DNA from: Paramacrobiotus metropolitanus
Taxonomy: Eukaryota > Tardigrada > Eutardigrada > Parachela > Macrobiotidae
Assembly: GCF_019649055.1 (NCBI RefSeq)
Contig: NW_026570316.1
Location: 248,001 to 312,000 of the forward strand
Direction: 5' to 3'
Length of the DNA stretch: 64,000 nucleotides
A model generated the notes under the pieces. It was not told the DNA's origin, made no database searches, and saw nothing but the letters and a program-made list of their open reading frames with translations. Shown piece after piece: positions 26,856-48,967 of this stretch (its first letter is position 1; each line of letters begins with the position of its first letter). A program made the position numbers and the translations under genes.

Positions 26856-28160
26856 CTACGGAGAACTTCCGACCAGCTTCTTAAACTCGTTATCCGAACT
26901 TCCACCTGCCGCTACCGCAGCGCGCGCCTGTTCCTTCATAATCCCGCAACATCGAGTGAACTCGCTCCCATACGGCCCATTGGACCATCCGGTCAACTCC
27001 AGCACCCGCTGCCCAATCTGCTGCGTACTAATCACCCTCTCAAACAACATGCTGGTGTTTGGGATCTTCAATGCAACGCCTGAATCCACCAGAAACTGAC
27101 TGTTCTGGTGTTGGTCCGCCGCCATAGGCCAGGCTACTACTGGAACTCCGCCCCACACACTCTCCATCGTACTATTCCATCCGCAGTGCGACACGAAGAT
27201 CGCCGTGGCCGGATGCGTTAAGACAAGTTTCTGTGGAGCCCAACGGACAATCAAATGATCCGTGTCGGTTTCCGGGAGATTCAGTGCCTTCAAACAGGTT
27301 TCTTCACGTTCTTTCAAAACCCAGAGAAACGGTCGATTCAACGATATCAGCGTCATCCAGATTTCGGTTAATTGTTTCGCTGGGAAGTCAATCAATAGAC
27401 TGCCAAATGACACATAAACAACGTTGCGATACGCTTGTTTGTCGAGCCACTGCACTACAGTGTCGTCCGAGTCGGTGTCAACAGGAAACAGCGGTCCGAC
27501 AAATAAAACATCTTTATCTTTCGTAACACGATGACCGGCAAGAAAATTGATAGCCTGTGGTTCCAGTTCACGTATGGAGTTCAGGATAATTGCTTGTGTG
27601 TTTTTCATTGCGGCTTGAATGCTCAGATTATTTTGTTTCATCGATTCGGGAATTCCGTGCGCCCCGATATCCGCGTTCCCGTTGCGAGGATGCAGAAACT
27701 GTTCATCCGGAATCGTCACCGTGGTTTCGGTAACCGCTAGTTTATTGCACAACGCTGCCGCCGACGCGGTGTGGAAGACACCGGTGGCAATGTTCCGTGC
27801 ATGACACGCATCCAGAGACGCCGCAATCGGGAAATCCGCAATGACAAAGTCCGCCGCGACCGTGGCGTATAATTTCCGCAACGCTTCGTTTGAGGCATTG
27901 GCGATAACACTCAGCTGGCCAGCGCTGACATTTTTGTCGTTTTCCGGTGTTAGTCCGTCTTCCAAGGGAAGGAAGGTGATGGGGTACTCACTTAGTGGCG
28001 GCATTAAATTTCGCTCGCGGATGACGGAGAGTTTCACAGCGGATACAACAAACGTTACATCATGAAAATGAACAATTTTCTTGGCCAGTTCTAATGTAGG
28101 GATGATGTGCCCGAATGCTGGAAACGCAACCAACACGAAATGTTTTCGTGGATTTGACAT
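26856..28160 (-). CDS. UDP-glycosyltransferase with plant-type PSPG box
   Basis: Single exon of 434 residues, ATG at 28160 and TAG at 26856. GT1 glycosyltransferases transfer sugar from UDP-sugar to small lipophilic acceptors. The N-terminus has the acceptor-domain motif with the usual catalytic His (FPAFGHIIP, H18). NVVYVSFGS is at residues 246-254. Residues 307-350 form a complete 44-residue PSPG box: WAPQ...H...F.SHCGWNS..E....GVP...WP...DQ. Animal UGTs normally have an N-terminal signal peptide, a C-terminal membrane anchor with a Lys-rich tail, and HGG rather than HCGWNS; all three animal features are absent here. The enzyme is therefore predicted to be soluble and cytosolic. The lack of introns contrasts with neighbouring genes. 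Horizontal acquisition from a plant, alga or other PSPG-bearing source is inferred, not shown. Confidence 0.9.
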   Translation of the reverse strand: MSNPRKHFVLVAFPAFGHIIPTLELAKKIVHFHDVTFVVSAVKLSVIRERNLMPPLSEYPITFLPLEDGLTPENDKNVSAGQLSVIANASNEALRKLYATVAADFVIADFPIAASLDACHARNIATGVFHTASAAALCNKLAVTETTVTIPDEQFLHPRNGNADIGAHGIPESMKQNNLSIQAAMKNTQAIILNSIRELEPQAINFLAGHRVTKDKDVLFVGPLFPVDTDSDDTVVQWLDKQAYRNVVYVSFGSLLIDFPAKQLTEIWMTLISLNRPFLWVLKEREETCLKALNLPETDTDHLIVRWAPQKLVLTHPATAIFVSHCGWNSTMESVWGGVPVVAWPMAADQHQNSQFLVDSGVALKIPNTSMLFERVISTQQIGQRVLELTGWSNGPYGSEFTRCCGIMKEQARAAVAAGGSSDNEFKKLVGSSP

Positions 28161-28798
28161 TTTTTGGTGGAATGTATGGCAGTAATTCAGATCAATGAGA
28201 AATCTGCAGGCATGGCGATGTGATCATTATTGTGAGGCCTTTTTCGGCGGTGCATGTCGAGATAAACGCGCTCATCGCTATTACCTTGAGCGATAAGAGA
28301 TACTACTTGCTACAGTACGAGCCGGTTCGTTTACAGATATGTACATACGGTATATTTTTATATTTGCACTAAAAACCGGTTTACGGCTAGCGGCGTTCAT
28401 AAGCCACTTACACTTTGTTAAAAAAAGTGCGCTGGTGTACTGTACAATTGTACATAATTATCTAACAATATGTTTAACGTATGTACTGTACATATCGAGA
28501 CAGGTGCGGTTACGAACAATCTATAGTTGTTACAGCCTAAATTTTCAATTAGTGACAAGAGTATTGCAGAGTGACGGCTTAAATTGTGAGCATTAAATAC
28601 TAAAGGGCCTGCGAAACGGTACCACGTTAACGCACAAATTTATCGGCATCTTCTTCCGATACTTAGACACCGTACGTTTATACAGATTAACTGAACTGGA
28701 CGGTGCTTCTTTAGGTCATCGTATATCGATTTGGTAGCTTGGTGGATGGCTCACATTCATGACAAGTTGTCAACCATTCACTTACTTAAAGAAAACTT

Positions 28799-33021: not shown

Positions 33022-36000
33022 TCAAGATATGGAATTGTGGGGATCTAGCTTCTGGAGAAGGGGTTGCTCCAGCGCACTGCATTCGATTGCTGCTAGATCT
33101 ACAATGAAAACAATCAACTGTGTTTTAGCAACAACGATAAGTTCTACCAGGATCGGCTTCGTCAAGGACGGAGGGCGGGGTTGTGATGAGATCTTATGTA
33201 CTCGTAAGAACCTTCCGGCACTGGGCTTATGAGCCGATGAATCCCATGTTAAATATTCAATTTCCTTAAAGCAACCTTTCTTCTTTTATTGCTTTAATAT
33301 TGTTCATCTAAAAGCATAGAAATATTTTTTTTCTTTTGAGATATAGCGCGCCCGTATGTGATCAGAACTACAAGAAATAGTTTTTGGTCCCTTAAATTGA
33401 TTAATCATTAATGTAGGGATACATAAACCGTGTCGTATCCTTCGTTACATGACTTTTTCGGGTCTCCTGCACAAGTCGCTCGTGGTTCTACTATTGCAAA
33501 GTTACGTTACCTGAAGAAAATTGCATGCTGTCTTCTGGGTTTACATTCTGGATACCACTGTGTACGGAAATGTCAGTTATTGGCTCTGCTGCGCTCCTAA
33601 AAATGTCGAGCTGGGCGGGATCACACAAGCCGACTGCTTGTGGATTAAGAAAGAACTCGAGCCCATTATGCTCCACCTCCAGCATAAGTTTGGGATTGTC
33701 CGATGCGGACGTCCACAGCGCCTGCACCGTCAGCGTGGCCCCAATCAAGCTTGCAAGGGCCGGTAACCAGCCGTAAAATTCTTCGGTTTGCACGGCCTGG
33801 AATGCAGTTTCCATGAGGATTACCCGAATTTTATCGCCAACCTGGACGAGAGAACCGTCGCCACATAACACTGTAAAAGGGAAGGATTGTTGCTTTTCAT
33901 CGTTAAAGACGGCTGCTAATAGTCCTTATCTCCTCGGAATGCAGTTTAAAAGGCTGTACTGACCTTTGCCTATTTTCCTTAGTGCTTTCCGATTGACGAA
34001 GCTACTTGTCTTGTTTACTCTGACGCAGACATCGCCGTCTTCATTAAAAAATAGGATATCGCACAATTTTCCCGTCGAAACCCCATGACCATTATCCGGT
34101 CTAGAGGGCCTCGGTTGTAAAAGATCGGCAGTGTCGACTTTCCCTACGATGAGCGCAACATCTTTGGCCTTAATCACTTGGCCATCGGCATCGCGGCCCT
34201 CATAACCATCTGCATTTAAATGCGTTAACGTTACGAACCTTCGAATAATAAAGCCAGTTTCTCATTAGCTGCGTACCTCGGGACATAACAACTAGGGTTT
34301 CGGGATGACAGACTAGAAGTTTCCACGCCAGGGATGGTGCGGTGATCATCTTTAATATTGCATCACCGCTAGACGTGAACATCTCAACGGTTCCCCAACA
34401 ACTACACATCCCTGCTTCGAAGTCCAGATTGTGTTCCACTTGTTTCCTCCGCACTAACGCTGGGTCTTGGCGAATAATAACATGGCTACCCACTACGGGC
34501 CGGCCCATGCGCAGTGCATACTTCAGGGTGTAATGCAGCAGAGTCCCGTTGACCATATGGGGTTTTATCCGCATGGCTGTCTTCAGTGCCTCCGGCGCTA
34601 CATTAAAATATTCTAAATTTGTACCTGCATTTATATATCTGTATAACATTCGTGCATAAATTTTGTATAATTGTCGTAACAAATACGGAGCAAAAAGTCT
34701 GCCTTATATTGACATCATACGGAGCGCCGTTCAACGTCAAACATACCATTTGACGGGTCCAACCTGCTTCGCAGCACCGCATGCCGTTCCCCCCGAACAG
34801 CATCACACATGGTTTGCGCCAAACGGAGATAACCCGTACTAATGGCAAACCGCATACACCGCCACACATCATCCACCGCATACCGGTCAATGCCACCGAC
34901 CGCTATCAGACAATCGACCATCTTCTGGTTGCCGAACATGGCCGCCATCCCCAGAGCGTTGACCCCGTGTTCGTCCTTCAGCGTGGGATCACACTCAGGA
35001 TGAGCCAGAATGGCGTTAATCTTCTTAATCCGATCTTCTTCGTCCACACTGCCACCCGGAAAGGCACACATGGCTAACGCCGTTATCTTGTTGAAACCAG
35101 TTGAGGTCATGTTGATATCGATGAACGGAGTGTCCACGAGCATTTGGACAATCGGTATACTACGTCCAAAAATGGCCAGCATCAGCGGTGTTAAGCCGAC
35201 CACTTTCTGGTTGACGTCAGTGTCTGATTGCTGCAGGATTTCTTGGACGGCGACAGTGGATTCACGTAAAATGGCGCAATGCAGTGGAGGTATATTTTGC
35301 TCAGGTTCGACTGGATGGTTAGCGGCGTCAACCGCCGGTTCGTTATCTAAAATTTCTGCAGCCACACAATTTGATTTGCCAAATCGCTTACCAGATCAAT
35401 ACTACAAATAACTTTATCACTTCGATCTAGATTTGAAATAGGCAAAACGAATGATTCTCAGTCGTAAAGCACCATACTGTATACGGCGTACGCGAATATT
35501 TACAATATTATGGGTGCGAAACCAAACCCCTGTAAATGCAACCAGTAAAGTAAAATTTGAAGCTGAATTTAGCGGAATATGACCTCTGCTGGTCATAAAC
35601 GAGCAAAATATTTTCCTACTGAAAATAAATCGCATGACGGCATAGTAATACAGTTCATTCATTCGAAAATTTTGACTGCATATGATGAGATGGCTTTGGA
35701 TTTGTGCATTCACATGCGATCCATTCAGTTTTAAAATCAGTTTGAAGCTGTATAGCACAGCATATAAAACGCGCATTATAACCTGAAGAAAAATTTCCAA
35801 AAGAGTTGTACTACATAATATACGTTACGCATACAGCGCCCTAAAACCCTTGTCGTTTCTAAACGTCGTACGGTGAGTGACCAGGACAGTGATCGTACAG
35901 TGAATGACCATCCCTAATGATCGCTGAGGCCGAATTCTTGTGCATATTACACCCGTTCCGAAAGTGAAGTAACTATTAACGTGAAGTAAGTTATTTGTGG

Positions 36001-36853
36001 TTGCATTTTATAAACGTACCCTTTGCAAGGTCCAGTAGCACTTTCTGAATCCCCTCCGGAACACTGTCCAAAATCGCAGCCACCAGATCCACGTTGTCGC
36101 TCTTCACAGCCCACGCACCCATCCTGATTATATCTTCCGGTGTGTACTGCGTAATTCGCTCACCGGGTAACAAACACCCAATAACGGCGAAGTTCTGTGT
36201 GAGTAGCGCCATTTCCAGCGCAGTTCGATTCTCGCGATTCCGTAACGCAAACCGGCATCGGGGGTGTGCTGCTATGAGTTCCGCTTTCTGCAGGATGCTG
36301 GTTTTGGAACTGAAGAGACTTGAGAGCAGCACGGCGGTCATCAGCGGAGTGTTTTGCAGTATTGTGGTCGGTTTGTTAACTTCCAAACGTGGACACTGTA
36401 GTAGCTCACGGAGAACGGCAATATCGACGCAATCCCGCAGTGCAAGCGTCAAGGGTGTTTCACCGTTACATTCCTGGTTGATTACACTAACTTCAGCAGT
36501 CGAGCAGAGGTGGCGTACTTGCGACACGTTCGCTTCAGCAACAGCTGCGTGCATAGGTCCAGCTAAATAGTCCATACATACCTCAATACTTCAGTGAATT
36601 AACGCTTTAATGGGCTCGTAGGTAATAACCATGCCAGGACCGGCAAAACTCAATAACAATTTCTAATTGCTCACAGTTTAACACAGAATTATTCTAAGTA
36701 GCGTGCTACAGGTTTATCGAAGGTGGAATGACTGGAATCTAAGTGAGACAGCTGAAGACGAATATGTCGCACATCCTCGACGCGTAACACAGCACGCGGA
36801 ACCGGAAATCTGCACAGTGCTAGCTTACCTTCTGTGCTAGCTGACGCTCCCAT
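33022..36853 (-). CDS. ANK-MIB-repeat protein, copy 1 (N-myristoylation-type start)
   Basis: Seven exons on the minus strand: 36829-36853, 36020-36562, 34747-35355, 34277-34597, 33964-34209, 33511-33870, 33022-33098; all introns are phase 1; 726 residues. Exon 1 encodes MGASASTE, a classic N-myristoylation context. Exons 2 (res 9-189) and 3 (190-392) each encode an ankyrin block (GETPLTLALR, NTPLMTAVL; GLTPLMLAIFG, GVNALGMAAMFG) followed by a similar helical tail. Exons 4, 5 and 6 each encode one repeat of the MIB type (VGSHVIIRQD...; GDVCVRV...FVNRKALRKI; VQVGDKIRVIL...FFLNPQAV). Exon 7 is a short Leu/Gln-rich end (LEQPLLQKLDP). MIB repeats bind Notch-ligand tails in Mind bomb, but that enzyme's MIB/HERC2, ZZ and RING domains are absent, so ubiquitin-ligase activity is not expected. 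Predicted location: inner face of membranes. Confidence 0.82.
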
Positions 36854-38303
36854 GTTTCAATACAGACGTAGTACAGATCCCGTTACATGGAGATTGCTGG
36901 TACGTACCACTGCGAAACGTTACTAACTTTATGTTATTCGTTAAGGAGACATGATAACTGCTCAGTGTAACTACATATCTCGGATTTAATGGTAGCGGCA
37001 TACGTATTATCGTGTATTGAATATTAACTGCCAGTGCAGTTTCTTATCTAAACACAGTTTTGGTTTTTACCGATATGATCGCAAGGCTTCCACGCGCTAT
37101 TGTTCACAATAAATCAGATAGCCGACAAGCTGAAAGTATGTTATCAACACTTCGGTGTTCGTCTGTGTCTTGTGTTCCAAATCTTATCACTATAAGATAT
37201 TCCTCTTAAAATCCAGCCTCCTAATATTGGGGTGCGTGAATACCTATTCGCCCCCATGGAGGACCAGCAATCTGTGTTTGCTGCATTAATTTTAAGTCAT
37301 TTTAATTAGTTTATACCTTCCCACGTTAAACCGTAATGCGAGCTCACGCTGTTATGTAGACCGGATATTGCCAAAATATAAAAAAGTTGCCGTTGTTTTG
37401 CTAAAGTAGATCGGTAAGAAATTGTTTATGAGAACGGGCGAGAGTCGTTCAGCTTATTTTTTGCTTCAGAGTTTTAGTTTCGAAATGATGCGTGGTAATG
37501 CTATGAGCGTTTTGTGCCAAGTCTCATTCCGTGTTAATTGGGACAAATTCTTCATCTGATTCTATGTACGGAGCGCAGCTCGCTTATATGCATATTGAGA
37601 AATAAAAGTTCTACGTTATATTATTATGTTTTCCTATGTTATCGGGATGTCGTTAGTAAAATGTCGGTGTTCATCAAAATGATCAAATGTAGTCTGTTAG
37701 CAATCGGCTTATCATCGAGCTGTGGTTTCAACAAGCTGTCGGCTAATCTTTTGTTGGTCAGCAAAAAGTCGTCTGTAAGTTGTCGGTCAGCAAATTAGCG
37801 GTCAGCAATATTGTCGGTGTACCGAGCAAGGCACACTTACATATCTGCATACGTCCTCTTGAACGCCTGCATATCCGAGTTACCGGTATTACTATCGGAT
37901 ATTACTAGACTATTTGTGCAACAGGTCTTGGTAACGTTATTACAAATTTCGGGGTGCTTAAGCAACAGTTATCAGAAATTCTATGAATGTGTACCTGAAT
38001 TCCATGAATGTGTCATTCATAATAATATGCTATCAAGTTTGTTCTATACTGTCAACCGTCTGTATCTGTACTATCAATTTTTTTGCTGATAATCAACGGA
38101 CAAGCGTTTACTGCGCGGATGCAACCGATTAAGTAATTCTACTGGCTCACAACATAATTTCTTGTTTTTACAGCATAATCTTGTTTATCATTAAGTTTAG
38201 CACACGCTCAACGTCCAGATTTTAGACTCGAACAAGTCCATTTCTTATTGGCAAGGCAGACATCGAAACAGGGAATTTCAAACTCTATGGTACACAGCGG
38301 AAA
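36854..38303. other. Intergenic between ANK-MIB copy 1 and the glycosyltransferase
   Basis: Contains the 5' flank of ANK-MIB copy 1. Short stretches (a TACCGATATG segment at about 37070, for example) resemble the flank of copy 2 near 49160, as expected if upstream DNA was part of the duplication. No other gene recognised. Confidence 0.45.
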
Positions 38304-39720
38304 ATGCCATCAAAGAAAGCTCTGTTTTTTTCTACCGGCTCCGCGTTGGTCGGGCTGGTTTGGCTTGTATCCACGTCTCGGTACACCATGTTCTCCGCCA
38401 GGATTTTTGTCAGACTGCCATTCCAACCTAATTTAACCAACCGCACAGTGGATATTCTGGAAAATCCTTTGCCAGAAATCACCAATGATTTGGTGAAACC
38501 GGAAACCGTTGGCTATTTGCCGGTACACATTGTGCGCTTTTACAGGACTGTACCCAGTGGAGACAGCCATAGTTTCTGCTGGACCGAATGCATCAGTCTC
38601 TTGTCGGTGCTGCTGTACGTTCGCCCATCGGTCATCTACATTCACACTAATTATCCGGATTATTGGCCTTTAGGGCGGTGCTACATGATTACTGATTATT
38701 CAAAGATCAGACTGATCTATCGACGGCGACGCATGGTGGCCCACGGCCGACCAATTAAGCGCGTTCCTCACGAAGCCGATATGGTGAAGTATAGCGTTGC
38801 CTACAAATATGGCGGAATTGTTATGGACATTGATGTGTTCTACTTGCCGAAAATGATGCGTAAGTATTTGTAGACTTTATTCACATGCAAAAGTTTATCT
38901 GCCGGTTTCGGACCAAATTTGTATTCGGCTAAGTAAGAAGGTCGCTGATTTTGGTTAAACATAATCAGCAAAGGTTACCATAATTCAATACACTGGTTTG
39001 TACACACGGTATGATAAAAGACTGATATGGCGATGTATAGAGTACGTTTGCATTTTAGCCTTGTTAAAAAAAAAATGGAGAGATGGAAAGTACGAATGTT
39101 TGCTTACGCGGGAGGACCGCGTGATGAATAGCGGATTTATCGCGTGCCATAAAGGTCATCCTTATATTCGTGATACTCTTATCCGCTATCGCGATGATTA
39201 CCGCGACAGCTGGCTATACAATAGCGGCAGCGTTCCCTGGGAAGTTTACAACAAAACTCCCGAGTACAAGACGAAACTGTACGTCGACCACCAGATGGGC
39301 AACCACAGCAACACATACCGAGGACCCATTCGGTACAGGGAAATACCAGCGTGGCATTCGTACTTCCACGGTTGCAAGCAGAACGAGAACAATACCATCC
39401 AGCAAGCGGTTAACTCGACCTTTTGGGAAATGCTGCATTTTATAGCCGCGGAAGGTTACGAGGCCTTCCCTTATTCGACTACGCCGAAAAGGACAACTGC
39501 CACCACGAGAAAATCAAGGACTGCTACGCTGCATACGAGAATCTCAGCTGTGCAGCCAGAACTCAGCCGTCATAAGAATGTGCCAAGCGTAACGTCACTG
39601 CTGGCTCTGCGTACATTTCAAGTAACGCCACGGCAGGCCACTGAAAATCGTACTGCGCCGCATACGATGACAAGCACGGCAGTCGTCTCCTCGACCGTGT
39701 CATTCAAACCGAGTATTTAG
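38304..39720 (+). CDS. Golgi-type DXD glycosyltransferase (alpha-1,4-glycosyltransferase-like), tail apparently frameshifted
   Basis: Two exons: 38304-38859 and 39059-39720 (405 codons, phase 1 intron). The type II topology has a short basic N-terminus and a membrane anchor at residues ~6-23 (ALFFSTGSALVGLVWLVST). The core resembles the DXD sugar-binding family that includes alpha-1,4-galactosyltransferases: HEADMVKYSVAYKYGGIVMD is followed by IDV, forming the D-x-D motif; later MNSGFIACHKGHP and EIPAWHSYFHG fit the family's acceptor side. After about residue 320 the frame becomes Thr/Ser/Arg-rich and unlike the family. Another frame from about 39465 instead reads a balanced sequence (LFDYAEKDNCHHEKIKDCYA) and continues coding-like to TAA at 39798, interrupted by TAA at 39573 and TGA at 39642. 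So the tail is probably frameshifted. The ER/Golgi transferase role is inferred from the family. Confidence 0.78.
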
Positions 39721-39800
39721 AACCACTGGACAGTCGAACACCAGGGCGCCTTGAATACCACAGCGGCTGGAAAATGGCCGCAGAAAATTCCCGGAACTAA
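39721..39800 (+). other. Coding-like remnant beyond the glycosyltransferase stop
   Basis: In the alternative frame this stretch reads LEPLDSRTPGRLEYHSGW and ends NSRN then TAA (39798-39800). It is the end of the out-of-frame ancestral-looking C-terminus described for the preceding gene. Confidence 0.5.
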
Positions 39801-41846
39801 AAATTCACACTGCGCAAACTCGTTTCATACCTGGATAAGTAGAGCAAAACGTAAGAAAACGAGGGAATGGGAACGAGGGAAATAGGAATTCAGACTGGTC
39901 GCTTGGCACTCATGATCCGTCTCGTACCATGTCAGTCGTGCTAATCGCTAGCTGATACGGTCGTATTATTATCGGTAAAAGAATAGATTGCCTAGGTATC
40001 ATGGTTGCCTGTTATTAACCATAGTACCTTTGTTCATTAGAAAAAAGGTATTTTAAACTTTGCTATATGGAAATAACTGAACGTTAACGGAATACTCGTA
40101 CAGTAACGTAACGAATAGATGTTCACGTACGTACAGACAATTCACCGTAAATATTTTTGGAAAGTGCCCTGTAGTGTCTACATTGAACACCCTGTACGAG
40201 TACACTTTTATGCGACAAAACGTTCGGGACATCCGAGTGCTTCTATAGTACTGTAGCAACAATAATAATAAAACATTTTTTATTGTATCAAAATGTTTTC
40301 TTCGGCCGTAATAGGAGCAAGAACAATAAAACGACGTCATGATCGAAGCAACCAGGCATAATAATGGCTGGCCATGATAAGTTTTGCGCAAATATAATCC
40401 GGCGCAGCCCATCTTGACCCTGTTACACACTGACCGAAAATCACGAAATTTTTTGATTATAAATTCAACCATGAATCTTTTCATGATGAATTAATTTGCA
40501 TAAATTAACTCTTGTAAACAGACTGAGAACAGCTACCAAAGCCAGGTCGATTGGAGTAAATCAAATGGCTACGACGTTGTGTAGAACGGAATTTGTGTGG
40601 TGTCGCACCGGCAACCGCCTTGCCCACACCGTGCGTATTCACCATATTGTATGTAGTCAATGACCAAGCGGTGGAATTTTCACCTTTCACCCTTCAAATT
40701 TTAAACTACTGCAGCAAAAATTTGAAAAACTTAGCTTAAGTTATTGTTAATCTATGGCATGAATTTCAACTTCGGTAAAATAATACGTATAATTCTGCTT
40801 TCGTAAGGTTTATTGATATCACCGTAATTAGCATGTACCGGTAGTTACATGGCTAAAAGCGCAAAATCACAGCATCCGGTAGAAATCCGGTAGAAAACTT
40901 TACACACTGACCGCACTCTTCAGTACATACAGTGATACACACGTGCATACACATGCATTATTAAATAGATTTACTTATTGATTAATAAACCGAGCTTAAG
41001 CGCGGACCAACTTAGGCCAAAACGTGGTTGAATTTCCGCGATCTCGCAACAAAAACTGGCTCTACCGTACGTAACACCAGCTGCTACCCTGGGAAGCAAT
41101 TCAATTAAGCTCTTTATGGAGCTTCCAGTTGGAGATCCTCTCGCCTTGTCGTCTGCGTCCCAGACCAGACGCAACTGACGGGCAAATAAAAATCAATAAA
41201 CTGCGGGTTATACTTGATACCGCGGCAGTCTCGAAAAAATTTTCCTTGGAAAAATTTTCTAGTAATTTTGTTTAAGCACATGATAGCCAATACTGGGAAC
41301 CCAGCCTTCCACATTCCTTTATCACATTTGAATTCTATTCCGAAATGAAGCCTCCTCTGCCATATAAGCCTCCCCAATACAGTTTGCAGATTTAGTAGCC
41401 ACCTCGGTATTAGAAGCCTCTTTCCGTAAACGGCGTTATTTTCAATGCTTCAAGTTATTCCACAATACGAGATCTGCTGCTGCTGCTCCAGAAACGGAAG
41501 GATTAATTCAAAAAACACGGCAAGTATAGTTCTGCATTTTTTAAAAATGTAATTATTCTAACATTGGGCGAATACACAATTTTTATATTGGCATATTTGT
41601 ATTAGTGCTGCATGAGCGATTTATACTATGCTTATATTTATATGAATATACTTCTATTTATTTATGCAGTATTTACATTTAAATAGAAATGCAAATCTTG
41701 CCTGGAATTTCCGTTCTCATGATCGGAATGGCCATCGGAAAGGCAATAAGAACCGAAAATAGCTATTGGTGGCAGCAACCAGGCGAAGTACGAGATACCT
41801 CCAAGTCTCCAACCAAACCGGCGTACGCATGGATTCCATTATTCTG

Positions 41847-41918
41847 GAAAGATCGCGGAACTCTTCCAAGCAGAATTTCAAATCTGAAACTCTGTTTGAA
41901 AGAGTTCCGCGATCTTTC
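41847..41918. repeat. 72-bp near-palindrome (hairpin)
   Basis: Arms GAAAGATCGCGGAACTCTT and AAGAGTTCCGCGATCTTTC are perfect, and the inner part also pairs with only transition mismatches, so the whole 72 bp folds on itself. It could be a small MITE or a hairpin RNA source. Confidence 0.75.
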
Positions 41919-43294
41919 AAAAAATATCGAACGGAAAGAAAGCTGACCAGAATGAACAAAAGAAAGATAACGGCAAACTGTTTATGTACGGAGGTGTTGG
42001 AATTGGAATAGGGACATAAAGACTATGGCGCTCCGGTCTCAGCAATTCTTGCGACAGTTACAGTAATTGTAGCAAGAATTGTTGAGAGTGTGGCGGTATT
42101 ATAAGCAGAAAAAAGGCTCCATTGGATGGAGCTGTCTCCGCACGAAAGCCAGATGAATTGTTGTTTTCTGCAATTTAGTTCGATTTTTTATTTCGCAAAA
42201 TTGTTAATTCAAACCGATCTAATTTTAAACTTTTGATTCTTGTGTTTTTAAGGTCATTCTACTTTTTCCCATTTTCTTTCTGTTTAATTTTAATCTTTAT
42301 TTCAATTCTCTTTTTCATTACTTTTTCCCAGAAGGAGCTCGAAGTGCAAAGAATTGGATGATCTGAAAGGCGGGAAGCACTTGATTAATTGATCATCAAC
42401 CAGATCAGCGGCGCGGAAGCCCGGTTTCAACCAGCGCCTAATGCCAACGCTAAACGACGTCATTATGTTTAAAACGTTTTATTCTATGGTATAGAATATA
42501 ACAAACAGAATACGTTTCAAACATAATGTCGTCGATTATAATATTGCAAGAATCAGTTGGATTTTAGTACTCAATAGAAAATAAAAGTTATCAGGCACGG
42601 GTAACGTGTTGCAGTGTATTGCATGCAAAAAACAACAAGTAAGCCACTTTTAAGAATGCCGTTTTCCAGCACATTTTTTCCCTTGTAGTGATGGTGAGTG
42701 GTAAAATGTACTAACTGCTTATACTAAGTGACTGCAGCGCAGCGAAACTAATTATATGGCACAATTCTCATCTATAATAAATGTCATTCTGAGCTTAATC
42801 GCGCGTATTCTGCATCGCAATAAGCACAAAACTGGCCTGGATTTCCAGGACTTGAATAACTAATCCCGACGCTCGGGCGTCGGTATAAACACGCTCTCCT
42901 TCGTCGTTGAGTGATTATCGATCGCTCATTTCCGCATTTCTCACCCAATATATATCGTACAAGCCTAGTCACATTGTAAATTTGTCACAAAAACAGAGTT
43001 AATTATAATAGTAAAATTTCCCTTAGCAGTTTCATCCATGGTTCCGAAAACGGATATCGCGTTACCCCGTTGAATTTCAGTTGACAGACGCTGGCATATG
43101 AATTTGTTCGGTGAGCATAGTTAAAATCTTGCTTTACCTAACCTACCGAAATATACACACAGCCAGCAATAACAAACTCGTACATACAACGGTGCAAATA
43201 CTGCCTGTATTATGTATAAATCGAAAAATACGTACGATAGCTACGATTATTAATCGGCAGGTGACTGCAACAGCACACCGGCGAACCTAAGAGG

Positions 43295-43534
43295 ATGATG
43301 TCCGGTTCGCAACAGTACCGCCATGTGTTGCTGATGCGCAGCTCGCTAACCAACCAAAGAGGATTTCAGTTGATCAACACCCGCTCCTTCCGTAGTGCCG
43401 CAGATGGGCGGGAAGCAGCAATGGAATCCACTCAAGTTCACCACCAGCACGGCATCCTCAAAATCCTTACCGGGCAGTGCTGTACGTTACCCTTCTACTC
43501 TATTTCACAACTGAGTACGCTACACACACCGTGA
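43295..43534 (+). CDS. Possible first exon or small ORF with a mitochondrial-presequence-like start
   Basis: ATG ATG start. The N-terminal ~50 residues are rich in Arg, Ser, Gln and Leu and poor in acidic residues (QYRHVLLMRSSLTNQRGFQL; NTRSFRSA), like a mitochondrial targeting sequence. The frame continues to TGA at 43532, but later residues look like spacer, so a splice donor may lie before the end. No downstream exon could be assigned. Confidence 0.3.
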   Translation: MMSGSQQYRHVLLMRSSLTNQRGFQLINTRSFRSAADGREAAMESTQVHHQHGILKILTGQCCTLPFYSISQLSTLHTP

Positions 43535-44065
43535 CACACGTAATTCATGGATAACTTGCGGATTATTTTCTGGTTAAGTTTCTGTTAGCCTGGGTGAGCC
43601 GATTAGGAAATTGCATGTACAGATGTACTCGCACGCTGTGGCGATGTACTATAGACGGTAGCATTCACGCAGGCCACACTGATCAACATTTTCATAACGT
43701 ATGTATTCATTATTCAAGATGGTCTAGAGATCGAAAGTACAGAGTACGTACTTCTGTAAACCAAAATTTAACCGGAATAACGCAAAGAAATCTCAAAAAA
43801 GAATTTGATATACACTTTAAAACCGTTTTTGTTGCAGGCTGAATTCACATCAGCCGTTTTACCGAAGGTACCTCTAATATAAAACAAACTTAATGTTATT
43901 TTTTTACAAACCACAAGTTTTCTATAATAATCGACTATTAATTGTGTTTTGGATGCGCATTGATGTGCGATTTCGGCTTTTTCCGTTGAATTTTTCGATT
44001 TTGGCCTGATTTTTCAACATAATTTTGTACTTTTCATACCAGATACGGATATCTGCATTCTTCAG

Positions 44066-44329
44066 TCACTGTGAATTTAAACTAGAGCCACCATTACCAA
44101 TCACAGCAGCACCGCCGGGAAAACTGTTAATTAGATGACATTTCCCTTTACAGTCTTTCTCTACCAACAACTGGATATTGTCCATCTTCGCCCGTTCGAT
44201 GGACTGGGCTTCATGATTCTGCTAGTACCAAATACCAATACCGATACCGCTAATGCCCCCCGAAAGTATCAGCCACTGTGAGGTACAACCTTTTTTAAAG
44301 TTTGCAGGAAGCAGCGGTTTTAAGCTCGT
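44066..44329 (-). pseudogene. Broken small membrane-protein ORF with an internal TAG
   Basis: On the minus strand the frame from 44329 reads a hydrophobic Gly/Ile segment (WLILSGGISGIGIGIWY), then TAG (44222-44224), then a protein-like hydrophilic stretch (QNHEAQSIERAKMDNIQLLV) to TGA at 44066. No in-frame ATG. Either decay of a small membrane protein or a programmed readthrough (the stop context is TAG CAG). No relative recognised. Confidence 0.35.
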
Positions 44330-45254
44330 TTAACATGACGGGATTGTCGAGGTGATGCAAAATGCAAACGAAAGAAAAGTGTAAGCGCATGAAGGTAACA
44401 AATCAAGTACTGAACGGGATTAAAGAGCGGAAGCTGTATGCATGGGAAGAAGCGTAGGGCAAAGGTCACAAAACGCACAAAAGACGACGCATGAAATACA
44501 GATGGTGTAGCAATTAATCATTTGGCGGAAAAAGAAACGAAGCGCAGCATGTACTAGATATTATTATTGTTCAATTATTGACGTTGCAGTTTTGAGAACC
44601 AAATTTCGGACATTTGAGAAACAAAGTTAGCACAAATTGTGCGGTTTTTCCGTCATTTTTTAACGATTATTGAATATTTATATGCCGGTAAAATATTCAG
44701 TCTTGGGTTGTATCAATATATGAGCAGGACCTGATGCCGCACCAATTACGTCAAATTTAGTCCGATAGCCGGCAAAAATTTAATACGCATCAATCCATCG
44801 TGGCATCCAGGTATGATCGTGAATTACTTTTCAGTTTTCTATAATTTCAGTGATGGGCCGCCGTATGCTGACATAAATGGATTGAGATCTATATTTCTTG
44901 ACATACAAAGAGTTCTGACAGCTGAAGAGTGGATTTGTTGATTTTTTAGCACGAAGCCGTCATTTGAACCACGACAAATAAATACTCGTACCTCAGTAGT
45001 GGCTTAAAAGTTGCAGGATTACCACTGTCCGCGTTGGTATGCCGAACAACCGAACGTAAAACAGTTCTTCATAGTACACAGTTAGCAGTCACCTGCTGGG
45101 CGTGCTACGCAGAAAACATCAATAAATTCTTTTCCCCGCAAATTACAAATCATAGCAAGCACTGGTTTCCGGTAGCTTTCGAACCAAGGCAGTATCGGAA
45201 GTGCAAGTTAAGGAAAAGATCACACTGGTTTAATCACGTGATATTATTGATTAA

Positions 45255-48200
45255 TTAATTAGCGCTGCTCAGATCGGGTTTGGAATAATTTGGATCCAGT
45301 TCCTGAAGCAGGGCCAGCTCCAGTGCATTGCGCTGCAAGGCTTCCAAATCTAAATAAAAATACCTAACAATGTTTTATTATCGGTAGCAAGCACTCAGAT
45401 TAATAATCATTGCATACCACATTCAGACACATGTAGCGTTACCTGAAGAAGAAATGCCGCTGCGTTCTGGATTGGTACTCGGGGCAGTAGTTTGCATCGG
45501 TGCTGCAGTTACCGGCTCTAATACGTTGCCGGTCACGTCCATATTAGCGTTATCAAGCGAGCCGACTGCTTGTGGGTTGACAAACACTCGGCGGCCGTTA
45601 TGCTCTACTTCAAGCACAATCTTGGGGTCGTCCGATGGAGATGTATACATCCTCTTCACTGTCAACGTGGCCCCAATCAGACCGGCCACAGTAGGTGACC
45701 AATCACCGAACTCCTCGGTTTGTACGGACTGGAATGCGGCTTCGGTGAGGATTACACGGACCTGATCGCCGACCTGGATGCTGGAACCGTCACCGCATGG
45801 AACTGTGATAAGATCGATCATGCACATTGTTAACTACAAAGAAAACCCGAACGAAGAGCAAGCCAGCTACTTTGAGCAAGCACTTAGGTATACCAGCCAG
45901 ACAGCATCGATAAAACCTCTTTCTCGTTCTGCAGCCATCCATAGTCAGTAGTGCAATATGACTAATTTTGAGAATTTCTGTATTGAACTTGAAGACTGAC
46001 TGACCTTTATCCACTTTCCTTAGTGCTTTTGGATTGAAACAGCTGACTTGTTTGCCCACACTGACTTGTACATCGCCGTCTTCATCGAAAAACAGGATAT
46101 CACCCAATTTTCCCAGAGCGTTCAGATGATCATCATCTAGACCGCCGTGAGTCTTCTGCAGCTCACGAGCGATGTCGATTTCCGCCACGACGCGCACAAT
46201 ATTTTTGGCCTTGATCACGTGCCCATCGCCGTCACGGCCTTCGTATCCGTCTGCAAGTTAAAGACTTAGGCATTTCTATAAGTTTCGCAACATATTTAGT
46301 TTGGAATATCTTTTAAGCGGTGCTCCAAATGCTTACCTCGCGATACAACCTTCAGGGCTTCAGGATTGCACAGTACAATGCGCAAAGCCGGTACTGGAAC
46401 GTTAAAGAGTTTTATTTCCGCATCACCGCTTGACGTGATCATCTCCACAATTCCCCAGCAACCGCACATCTCCGCAGCGAAATTCAGGTTGTGTTCCGCT
46501 TGTTTCATCCTCACCAGTGCCTGGTCCTTGTTGATAACAACGTGGCTGCCCACCACGGGCCGGCCCAGCCGAAGGGCTAACTTGATGGTGCGATTCAGCA
46601 GTTTTCCGTTGACCATGTGCGATTTTAGCAGGATGGCCGTCTTCAGTGCTTCCGGTGCTGCATAAGAATAATTTATTTAAGCATGTACAATTTACGCACG
46701 CACTGACGTCTGATTTTAAATAAACCAGTTAGCCCATTTACAATACTGCGAACGAAGCTAATACTTCTTTACTGTATCGATACTGGCGCGGAGTGCCAAT
46801 CTTCCTTTCTAAGTTCTACCACAGCTCTTAAGCTTACCTGTTGGCTCCAAAATACGGTGCTCCTTACAATTTTAACTACATAGTACAATATTATACTGTA
46901 CACTGCCATACGTACCGTTTCCATTTTGCGAACGATCCAATCTCATAGCCAACACCGCTCTGCGATCATCCCGCACGGCATTACATAAGGTAAGCGCCAA
47001 ATCCTTATGCTCCGCACTGATGGCAAACCTCACGCACTGCCATACATCATCCAGCGCATACCGATCGATGCGCCCGTCCGCTATCAGACAATCGGCCAGC
47101 TTGTCATTATCGAACACAGCCGTCATGCCGAGAGCGTTGACTCCGTCTTCGTCCTTTAGCGTGGGATCACATTGCGGATGAGCCAGTATGGCGTTCATCA
47201 TCTTGACCCGCTCTTCTTCATCCGCAATGCCACCCGCAAAAGCGCACATGATTAATGCTGTCGTCTTCTTGAAACCGGTGGAGGTCATGTTGATGTCGAT
47301 GGACGGAGTGTCGACGAGCATTTGGACAATAGGCGGGCTGCGTCCACAAGCTGCTAACATTAAGGGCGTTAAGCCGGCGACTTTCTGGTTGACGTCAGTG
47401 TTCGGTTGCTGAAGGATTTCTTGGACACCGGTAATATCTTCTCTCATAATGGCAGAATGCAGCGGAGGTATGTCTTTGTGGGTTTCTATTGGTTGTTTTG
47501 CCCGACTATCTGCCTCTTCGTTATTCAGAACCTCTGCAAGCAGATGCTACTATTTTTTAACTGGCCCGGTTCTAAGCGCCTCGATCAGCTAAAGCAGTAA
47601 AAGTACTGTTTTTAAATTTTTTAAGTTTGTTCAACAAAATTTAAACTGTCGTTAATTTCATTACCGAGTATATTCGTAATTTCGCTATTGCAAAACAAAA
47701 CCCGAATTCTTAGTTTTAAATTTTTTCCGTCGTACCTTTCGCGACTGCCAGAAATATCTTCTGAATCCCCTCGGGAACACTATCCAGAATCGCCACCACC
47801 AGATCCGCATTCTCGCTCTTGACAGCCAATGCACCCACCTTAATGATATCCTCTGCCGCATAGTGCTTGACCCGATCACCGCGTAACAGACACCCTACAA
47901 TTGCTGGATTCTTGGTTCGTACCGCCATCTCCAGCGCTGTCCAGTTCTCGCCATTCCGCAACGCTAACCGGCAGCGTGGATGTGCTGCTATGAGCTCCGC
48001 TTTCTGCAGAATGCTGGTTTTGGCACTGGGATGCCCTGCCAAGACTACAGCGGTCATCAGTGGAGTGTTTCGAGCGCTGGTGGTCGGCTTATTGACATCC
48101 AGACGTGGACACTGAAGTAATTCACGGAGAATGGCGATGTCGATGCCGTCACGTAGTGCTAGCGTCAACGGTGTCTCCCCGTTGAATTCCCGGTTGATCA

Positions 48201-48967
48201 CGCTGCTGTTGGCCGTCGAGCAGATGTGACGCACTTGCAGCACATTCCCTTCCGCAACAGCCCCGTGCAGAGGTCCCGCTGCAATATCAGTGAATACTTT
48301 AGTGATCTGTTTGTGTTTCGTATGCGGTTCTTAAACTCTATATATGCACAATGAAAGCATCTGTCACACAGGGTTCTCAAAATGCACATGTAACACGGAA
48401 TACTCGGAATACTCATGATCATTTCTAAGCATTATATGTCTTTAACCATTATATGTTGGGCGCTTCCTTTACGGTACTTTAAAAGTACATCGCGCAGAAT
48501 GCACAGGTCATTTTGATTGCGTCTATTAAAAGTTCTCCTCGTAAGAAAACGCTTCCATCTGCATTCGTACAACTAAAAACCCACAATGCTAAAACAAACC
48601 CTTCGAATTCGCGATGCACAATTGTAGCTGACTCTCATAATAAGACTTATGGTGGGTCTAAGGTTCGAAGCGAATCTGGTTGCGATACAGCAACTCCACC
48701 TCGCGAGGTGGCTTCACGTACTGTATCTGTAGGCGTGACCACCTCGTGCGGTTGAGCAACCTTACCATAGCAAATAGCAAGATTCGCTTTGAATCTGAGA
48801 CCCACCCTTACACTGCCACTACACTGTATATATTACAGCATACATATTTAGCTCTACAAAAGCTCTTTGAAACTACAAGCACTACCTCCAAAAAACGGAA
48901 CAGTGCGTGCGACCGGAAACACGCAACATAACACTAGCTTACCTTCCGTGCTAGCCGACGCCCCCAT
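45255..48967 (-). CDS. ANK-MIB-repeat protein, copy 2 (N-myristoylation-type start)
   Basis: Seven exons on the minus strand: 48943-48967, 47736-48278, 46916-47533, 46337-46657, 46005-46250, 45443-45802, 45255-45349; 735 residues, all introns phase 1. Exons 1, 2, 4, 5 and 6 have exactly the lengths of copy 1 (25, 543, 321, 246, 360 bp); exon 3 is 9 bp longer and exon 7 is 18 bp longer. MGASASTE is identical. Ankyrin blocks lie in exons 2 and 3 (GETPLTLALRDG; GLTPLMLAACG). MIB-type repeats lie in exon 4 (VGSHVVINKDQALV...LCNPEALKVV), exon 5 (GDVQVSV...CFNPKALRKV) and exon 6 (IQVGDQVRVILTEAAF...VFVNPQAVGSL). The end is LELALLQELDPNYSKPDL. Both genes lie in the same orientation about 9 kb apart, as a tandem duplication. 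Role unknown; see copy 1. Confidence 0.83.
48651..48807. mobile_element. 157-bp MITE-like element in intron 1 of ANK-MIB copy 2
   Basis: Ends GGTGGGTCTAAGGTTCGAAG and, in reverse complement, GGGTGGGTCTCAGATTCAAAG form imperfect terminal inverted repeats continuing to CGAATCT. The interior has a second short hairpin (CCACCTCGCGAGGTGG). No coding capacity. Confidence 0.65.

Follow-up and report, generated by a model that had tools for sequence, protein, structure and literature searches.

Results

A 64,000-nt stretch of the genome of the tardigrade Paramacrobiotus metropolitanus (positions 248001-312000 of contig NW_026570316.1, here C96; assembly GCF_019649055.1, 169.8 Mb in 533 contigs), referred to below as the window, carries two tandem genes on the minus strand, A (36853-33022) and B (48967-45255). 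They encode proteins of 726 and 735 residues, respectively, in which ankyrin (ANK) repeats precede repeats of the type found in Mind bomb (MIB repeats, REP; Pfam SH3_15). Both genes comprise seven exons of 25, 543, 609 (A) or 618 (B), 321, 246, 360, and 77 (A) or 95 (B) nt, with AG/GT splice sites throughout and phase 1 at every internal intron. A preliminary description of the locus, made from the letters alone, had proposed seven phase-1 exons for each gene; our splice models agree, and its outer coordinates coincide exactly with where B starts and A stops. Both proteins begin MGASASTE, in keeping with the start it had read, and in each gene an in-frame stop precedes the ATG by 6 nt. Pfam ankyrin models exceed the cut-off in A and in B, and the scans place the ankyrins in exons 2 and 3, upstream of the repeat exons, where they had been predicted. 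Because exons 2 and 3 are ~27% identical, the two ankyrin blocks probably arose by internal duplication.

MIB repeats were sought in exons 4-6, for each of which a repeat had been claimed. Exon 5 of B alone scored 31.7 bits against SH3_15 (cut-off 24) and matched solved MIB1 with an E value of 6.4e-11 in a single-sequence search; the exon-5 family profile improved this to 1.5e-16. Exon 6 of B alone scored 15.9 bits, below the cut-off. The exon-6 family profile matched solved MIB1 at 4.9e-8, and SH3_15 matched four of seven exon-6 family members at E ≤1 (best 3.1e-6). By these profile matches, exon 5 is a clear MIB repeat and exon 6 a divergent one, so that two of the three claimed repeats stand; exon 4, whose profile retrieved no MIB chain, is only a possible third. 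In a small midpoint-rooted tree, MIB repeats grouped with exon-5 repeats, apart from exon 6 (100/99).

A genome search with exon 5 returned eight places: A, B, a third copy on the same contig (C96c, at C96:124805, ~169 kb from B), and copies on contigs C9, C54, C36, C58 and C7. By this search the family has at least eight copies. Exon 3 was found in eight copies, with a further weak match on C74, exon 6 in seven, and exon 2 in A, B, C96c, C54, C9 and C74. No exon 2 was found for C58 or C7, C96c and C9 were modelled without exon 7, and the exon 2 donor and exon 6 end of C9 are non-consensus guesses. The C36 copy was excluded from the exon-5 alignment (seven of eight kept) and from all trees; it lacks exon 6, so exon-6 sets hold seven sequences. 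Whole-protein SH3_15 scores were 42.8 bits for B, 37.2 for C96c, 38.1 for C9 and 56.5 for C54. No relative turned up when viral and prokaryote collections were scanned with the exon-5 profile, one short pattern being used for each.

Ratios of nonsynonymous to synonymous substitution (dN/dS) were 0.24 for A-B, 0.17 for B-C96c and 0.28 for A-C96c, with dS ~1. Because dN/dS lies between 0.17 and 0.28, A, B and C96c are under purifying selection. The degenerate exon 5 and long branch of A, together with the broken state of C36, would suit a view of A and B as degenerating duplicates of little function. Against this view stand open frames, sound splice sites and these low ratios at dS near 1, and we regard it as improbable.

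Two loci of the family showed additional features. At C36 (locus L004, G000:C36:531500-541400) the copy is broken: its pieces lie in different frames, a stop interrupts exon 5, and two places resemble exon 4. At C58 (L005, G000:C58:158400-168300), the region upstream of the ankyrin exon in which exon 2 would be expected is filled by short repeats in a long array (peptide frame APTKVSGLK).

The C54 copy yielded a ten-exon model of 995 residues in which ANK, SH3_15 and Pkinase lie in one frame-consistent chain. Its kinase, encoded by exons 7-10, is complete (Pfam Pkinase, 144 bits, E 7.1e-42, covering 2-258 of 263); the kinase exons break in phases 2, 0 and 0, and the upstream exons in phase 1. 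The C58 kinase is 56% identical to that of C54 over 283 residues. AVKK, HQD and DFG, the lysine, catalytic aspartate and DFG marks of a complete kinase, can be read in both. In a genome scan with 122 matches, for which 137 of 312 candidates were scored, only C54 and C58 among the eight copies adjoined kinase exons, and no kinase match was found on C96 at E 0.001. Within the window, neither kinase query gave a match below E 2 (best E 2.2). A candidate kinase-exon remnant in C9 (L002, ~7622) was rejected on inspection by eye (E 12, wrong phase).

Among the best 60 of 939 matches of the C54 kinase to solved chains, the top one was an EGFR chain (E 3.6e-36) aligned in two stretches, the better covering 2-167. 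The next 13 were all RIPK1 (from 1.5e-23), spanning nearly the full domain as the best full-length, single-stretch matches, followed by MAP3K5, MLK, NEK7 and others. The C54 and C58 kinases are here termed RIPK1/TKL-like. The ankyrin-bearing RIP kinases RIPK4 and ANKK1 have the kinase first, and are not known to carry MIB repeats.

A tree of exons 3-6 from seven copies resolved the groups (C54,C7), (C9,C58) and (A,B,C96c), with all splits supported at 100/99 or above. Both an exon-3 subtree rooted by exon 2 (95/99) and an exon-6 subtree rooted by exon 5 plus MIB repeats (95/92) joined A/B/C96c to C9/C58, apart from C54/C7. Since C54 and C58 lie on opposite sides of the first fork, the ancestor is most simply read as kinase-bearing; in the simplest history, the kinase would then have been lost in the C7, C9 and A/B/C96c branches. 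The ancestral order was most simply ANK-ANK-REP-kinase, and we consider it highly probable that A and B descend from a kinase-bearing form. Exon 7 of B lies where the kinase exon starts in C54, behind the same phase-1 acceptor, and reads DLEALQRNALELALL against the kinase-exon DLQIIQKKELKLEKK; 94 of 100,000 shuffles scored as well. Alternatively, a kinase-less ANK-REP protein could be ancestral, with the kinase gained once before the C54/C58 split and lost elsewhere, or gained twice. Five of the seven tree copies lack a kinase and the exon-7 homology rests on ~15 residues, as this alternative would have it. However, the C54 and C58 kinases are similar in sequence, sit in the same place with the same exon breaks, and occur on both sides of the first fork, and a single gain would still put a kinase in the common ancestor of the seven; we judge a kinase-less ancestor unlikely.

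At two loci, other kinases lie near family-like ankyrin exons. At L010 (G000:C74:542500-552000), the minus strand carries an ankyrin exon that resembles exon 2 (38% identical to that of B). A different kinase, in which HGD and GDLD replace the usual motifs, lies ~2 kb further on, and the interval yielded no repeat exons. At L006 (G000:C7:316700-326600), the ankyrin-repeat copy of C7 is directly preceded, also on the minus strand, by a kinase that shares 35% identity with the one on C74. If these are one gene, its order would be kinase-ANK-REP, as in the Arabidopsis protein KEG described below.

First exons were located with a scan of up to 3 kb ahead of exon 2 that accepted any ATG with a phase-1 GTRAG donor no more than 120 nt after it, with no bias toward ATGGG. 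Five of the eight copies were scored (no first exon could be modelled for C58, C7 or C36), and their loci gave 6, 4, 2, 2 and 1 start candidates, 15 in total. The candidate nearest to exon 2 read MGxxxS at all five loci (MGASAS, MGASAS, MGSSFS, MGGNAS and MGGKGS), and none of the other ten did. The consensus MGxxxS/T marks N-myristoylation. Because of this motif, A and B are probably N-myristoylated, and so membrane-bound; the myristoylation-type start originally noted for the two genes is conserved in every first exon modelled.

Mind bomb contains two mib/herc2 domains, a ZZ finger, two mib repeats, ankyrins and three RINGs (PMC3979679). A and B share MIB-type repeats and ankyrins with Mind bomb (MIB1/MIB2), which differs from them in having mib/herc2, ZZ and RING domains and in placing REP before ANK, whereas the ankyrins of A and B (exons 2-3) precede the repeats (exons 4-6). 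MIB/HERC2 domains (PF06701) were found at three genome places, two on C88 and one on C2, and none on C96. No RING (PF13920) was present on C96 among the 150 places listed (150 of 219 candidates scored), and Pfam scans of A, B, C96c, C9 and C54 revealed no RING. The distinction from Mind bomb drawn in the preliminary description is upheld by domain order, and near the genes there was no MIB/HERC2 place and, among the places listed, no RING.

The genome's own Mind bomb-like gene lies on C88, where the two MIB/HERC2 places are followed by SH3_15 places and then by ankyrin-like frames (read by eye); RING places 21-28 kb further on were kept separate from it. Five RING places in two clusters (G000:C88:252857-260769) lie downstream of this gene, possibly a duplicated 3' end. 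Repeat 1 of the C88 gene appears in three pieces and repeat 2 in two (splice sites not modelled). Exon shuffling, earlier suggested for A and B, survives in part: the 1-1 phases and the single repeat in each exon are consistent with exon duplication, but these exons were not lifted from the Mind bomb gene in its present form, because its repeats are broken by introns. The same interrupted repeats count against a ligase-dead Mind bomb offshoot that, at the membrane, would bind the tails of Notch ligands or compete for them, the origin first proposed for A and B. The match of exon 5 to the solved MIB1 REP and a start motif compatible with membrane tethering speak for such an origin. However, a kinase, not a RING or other ligase module, follows the same exons in C54 and C58, the trees make that kinase most simply ancestral, MIB/HERC2 places are confined to C88 and C2, and ANK precedes REP. 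We now view this origin as very unlikely.

Table 1. Exons of genes A and B in window coordinates
Feature	Position	Strand	Basis or remark
Gene B exon 1	48943..48967	-	MGASASTE(G); start Met, MGxxxS motif, phase-1 donor gtaagc
Gene B exon 2, ankyrin block 1	47736..48278	-	Pfam Ank_2; 46-74% identical exon in C96c, A, C54, C9
Gene B exon 3, ankyrin block 2	46916..47533	-	Best Pfam Ank_2 stretch at 214-290; shares ~27% identity with block 1
Gene B exon 4, possible divergent MIB repeat	46337..46657	-	Weak basis
Gene B exon 5, MIB repeat (SH3_15)	46005..46250	-	Pfam 31.7 bits (cut-off 24); MIB1 4tse 6.4e-11; family profile 1.5e-16
Gene B exon 6, divergent MIB repeat and linker	45443..45802	-	15.9 bits alone; family profile to MIB1 4.9e-8
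Gene B exon 7, short tail	45255..45349	-	Resembles kinase exon start of C54, C58; 94/100,000 shuffles score as high
Gene A exon 1	36829..36853	-	MGASASTE(G)
Gene A exon 2, ankyrin block 1	36020..36562	-	Spliced model, Pfam scan, exon-2 relatives
Gene A exon 3, ankyrin block 2	34747..35355	-	Spliced model, Pfam scan, exon-3 relatives
Gene A exon 4, possible divergent repeat	34277..34597	-	Spliced model
Gene A exon 5, degenerate MIB repeat	33964..34209	-	55% identical to B; gene A without Pfam SH3_15 match at E 0.1
Gene A exon 6, divergent MIB repeat and linker	33511..33870	-	68% identical to B over repeat
Gene A exon 7, short tail	33022..33098	-	Weak likeness to kinase exon start; 1,033/100,000 shuffles

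Two other regions of the window contain frames resembling glycosyltransferases. Between A and B, on the plus strand at 38226-39720, frames resemble alpha-1,4-glycosyltransferase and include a DXD-type stretch. On the minus strand at 26856-28223, a 455-residue frame, read by eye, resembles UDP-glycosyltransferase.

Discussion

The closest combination of modules that we encountered is that of KEG of Arabidopsis, in which a RING, a kinase, ankyrins and SH3_15 (HERC2-like) repeats follow one another in this sequence, and whose ankyrin and repeat parts pull down a substrate (PMC11020294, PMC11701565). Like KEG as described there, the family of A and B joins ANK, SH3_15 and kinase modules in one chain with ANK before the repeats. 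KEG differs, in a comparison by description only, in its RING-kinase-ANK-many repeats arrangement of 1,625 residues; here the kinase is C-terminal where present, there are two or three repeats, and no RING was found. A and B lack the full KEG set of RING, kinase, ANK and SH3_15, as a kinase occurs only in C54 and C58. A and B share modules with both KEG and Mind bomb without qualifying as either. Zebrafish ftr97 is another animal protein reported to have SH3_15 repeats, six in number, although it is not a Mind bomb (PMC11701565); as described there, ftr97 differs from A and B in carrying RING domains and no ankyrin repeats. A literature search, judged from titles, the openings of abstracts and the passages cited here, and mostly covering papers outside subscription, returned, among the papers listed, none on an animal ANK-MIB repeat-kinase protein.

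We propose that A and B are cytoplasmic, probably N-myristoylated proteins in which two ankyrin blocks are joined to SH3-like repeats of the MIB type, two or three in number. By analogy with the use of these modules in MIB1 and KEG, ANK and REP would bind protein partners. A and B would then take up the partner site or the membrane site of the paralogues that keep the kinase, serving as scaffolds or dominant-negative decoys in their signalling, a role suggested by the combination of a lipid anchor with no enzyme. As an overall explanation, we favor with moderate confidence that A and B are scaffolds or decoys of an ANK-REP-kinase family; for the decoy or scaffold role itself, the chances appear even.

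Several observations weigh against this proposal or the history behind it. Protein A gave no Pfam SH3_15 match at E 0.1, which is explained, as judged from its sequence, by divergence of exon 5; that exon is degenerate and the branch of A is long (0.46 versus 0.09 for B). Exon 4 is a possible MIB repeat on mixed indications. Exon 4 of B had no Pfam SH3_15 match, and one of eight exon-4 members matched at E 0.071. Searched against the PDB, the exon-4 profile retrieved no MIB chain, its eight matches (E ≥0.35) all being unrelated. Profile-profile comparison of exon 4 with exon 5 gave a probability of 1.0 and a P of 0.052. A hidden Markov model (HMM) built from exon 5, exon 6 and MIB repeats scored the eight exon-4 sequences at 0.5-6.2 bits, with at least 7 of 2,000 shuffles beating the best. 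An exon-4 HMM run over 17 repeats matched Mind bomb repeat 2 best (E 5.7e-5 for one sequence, without decoys). AlphaFold2 models were too poor to be read, both for exon 4 (B and A, two rows; mean predicted local distance difference test score 37.7) and for exon 5 (B and three other window exons, four rows; 49.7). As to the kinase, the exon-2 subtree was unresolved at its root, and the observed pattern would also follow from gene conversion or from two independent gains of the kinase. The exon-7 likeness is weak in C96c (560 of 100,000 shuffles) and A (1,033 of 100,000), the matches of C96c, A and B are not independent as these are sisters, and the match spans only ~15 residues. Among 3,260 AG-peptides taken from the window, a set that includes the tested exons and so B's own, one scores as high as exon 7 of B.

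Mammalian MIB2 is reported to bind and ubiquitylate RIPK1 (PMC7815719). We tentatively raise a broader scenario, which we think doubtful, in which an animal lineage joined substrate-reading repeats of the MIB type to ankyrins and a RIPK1-like kinase on a myristoyl anchor, so that the modules of KEG, in another order, may have come together independently in animals. At least three later kinase losses (C7, C9 and A/B/C96c) would have yielded membrane decoys that tune the paralogues keeping the kinase. If this were true, the fusion may put two partners of a cell-death or stress axis in one chain.

On present evidence, this family places MIB repeats outside ubiquitin ligases in an animal and attaches them to a kinase, and it corrects the tempting annotation of such genes as Mind bomb-like. 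With kinase-bearing and kinase-less paralogues in one genome, P. metropolitanus offers a natural set in which the decoy mechanism predicted for A and B could be tested.

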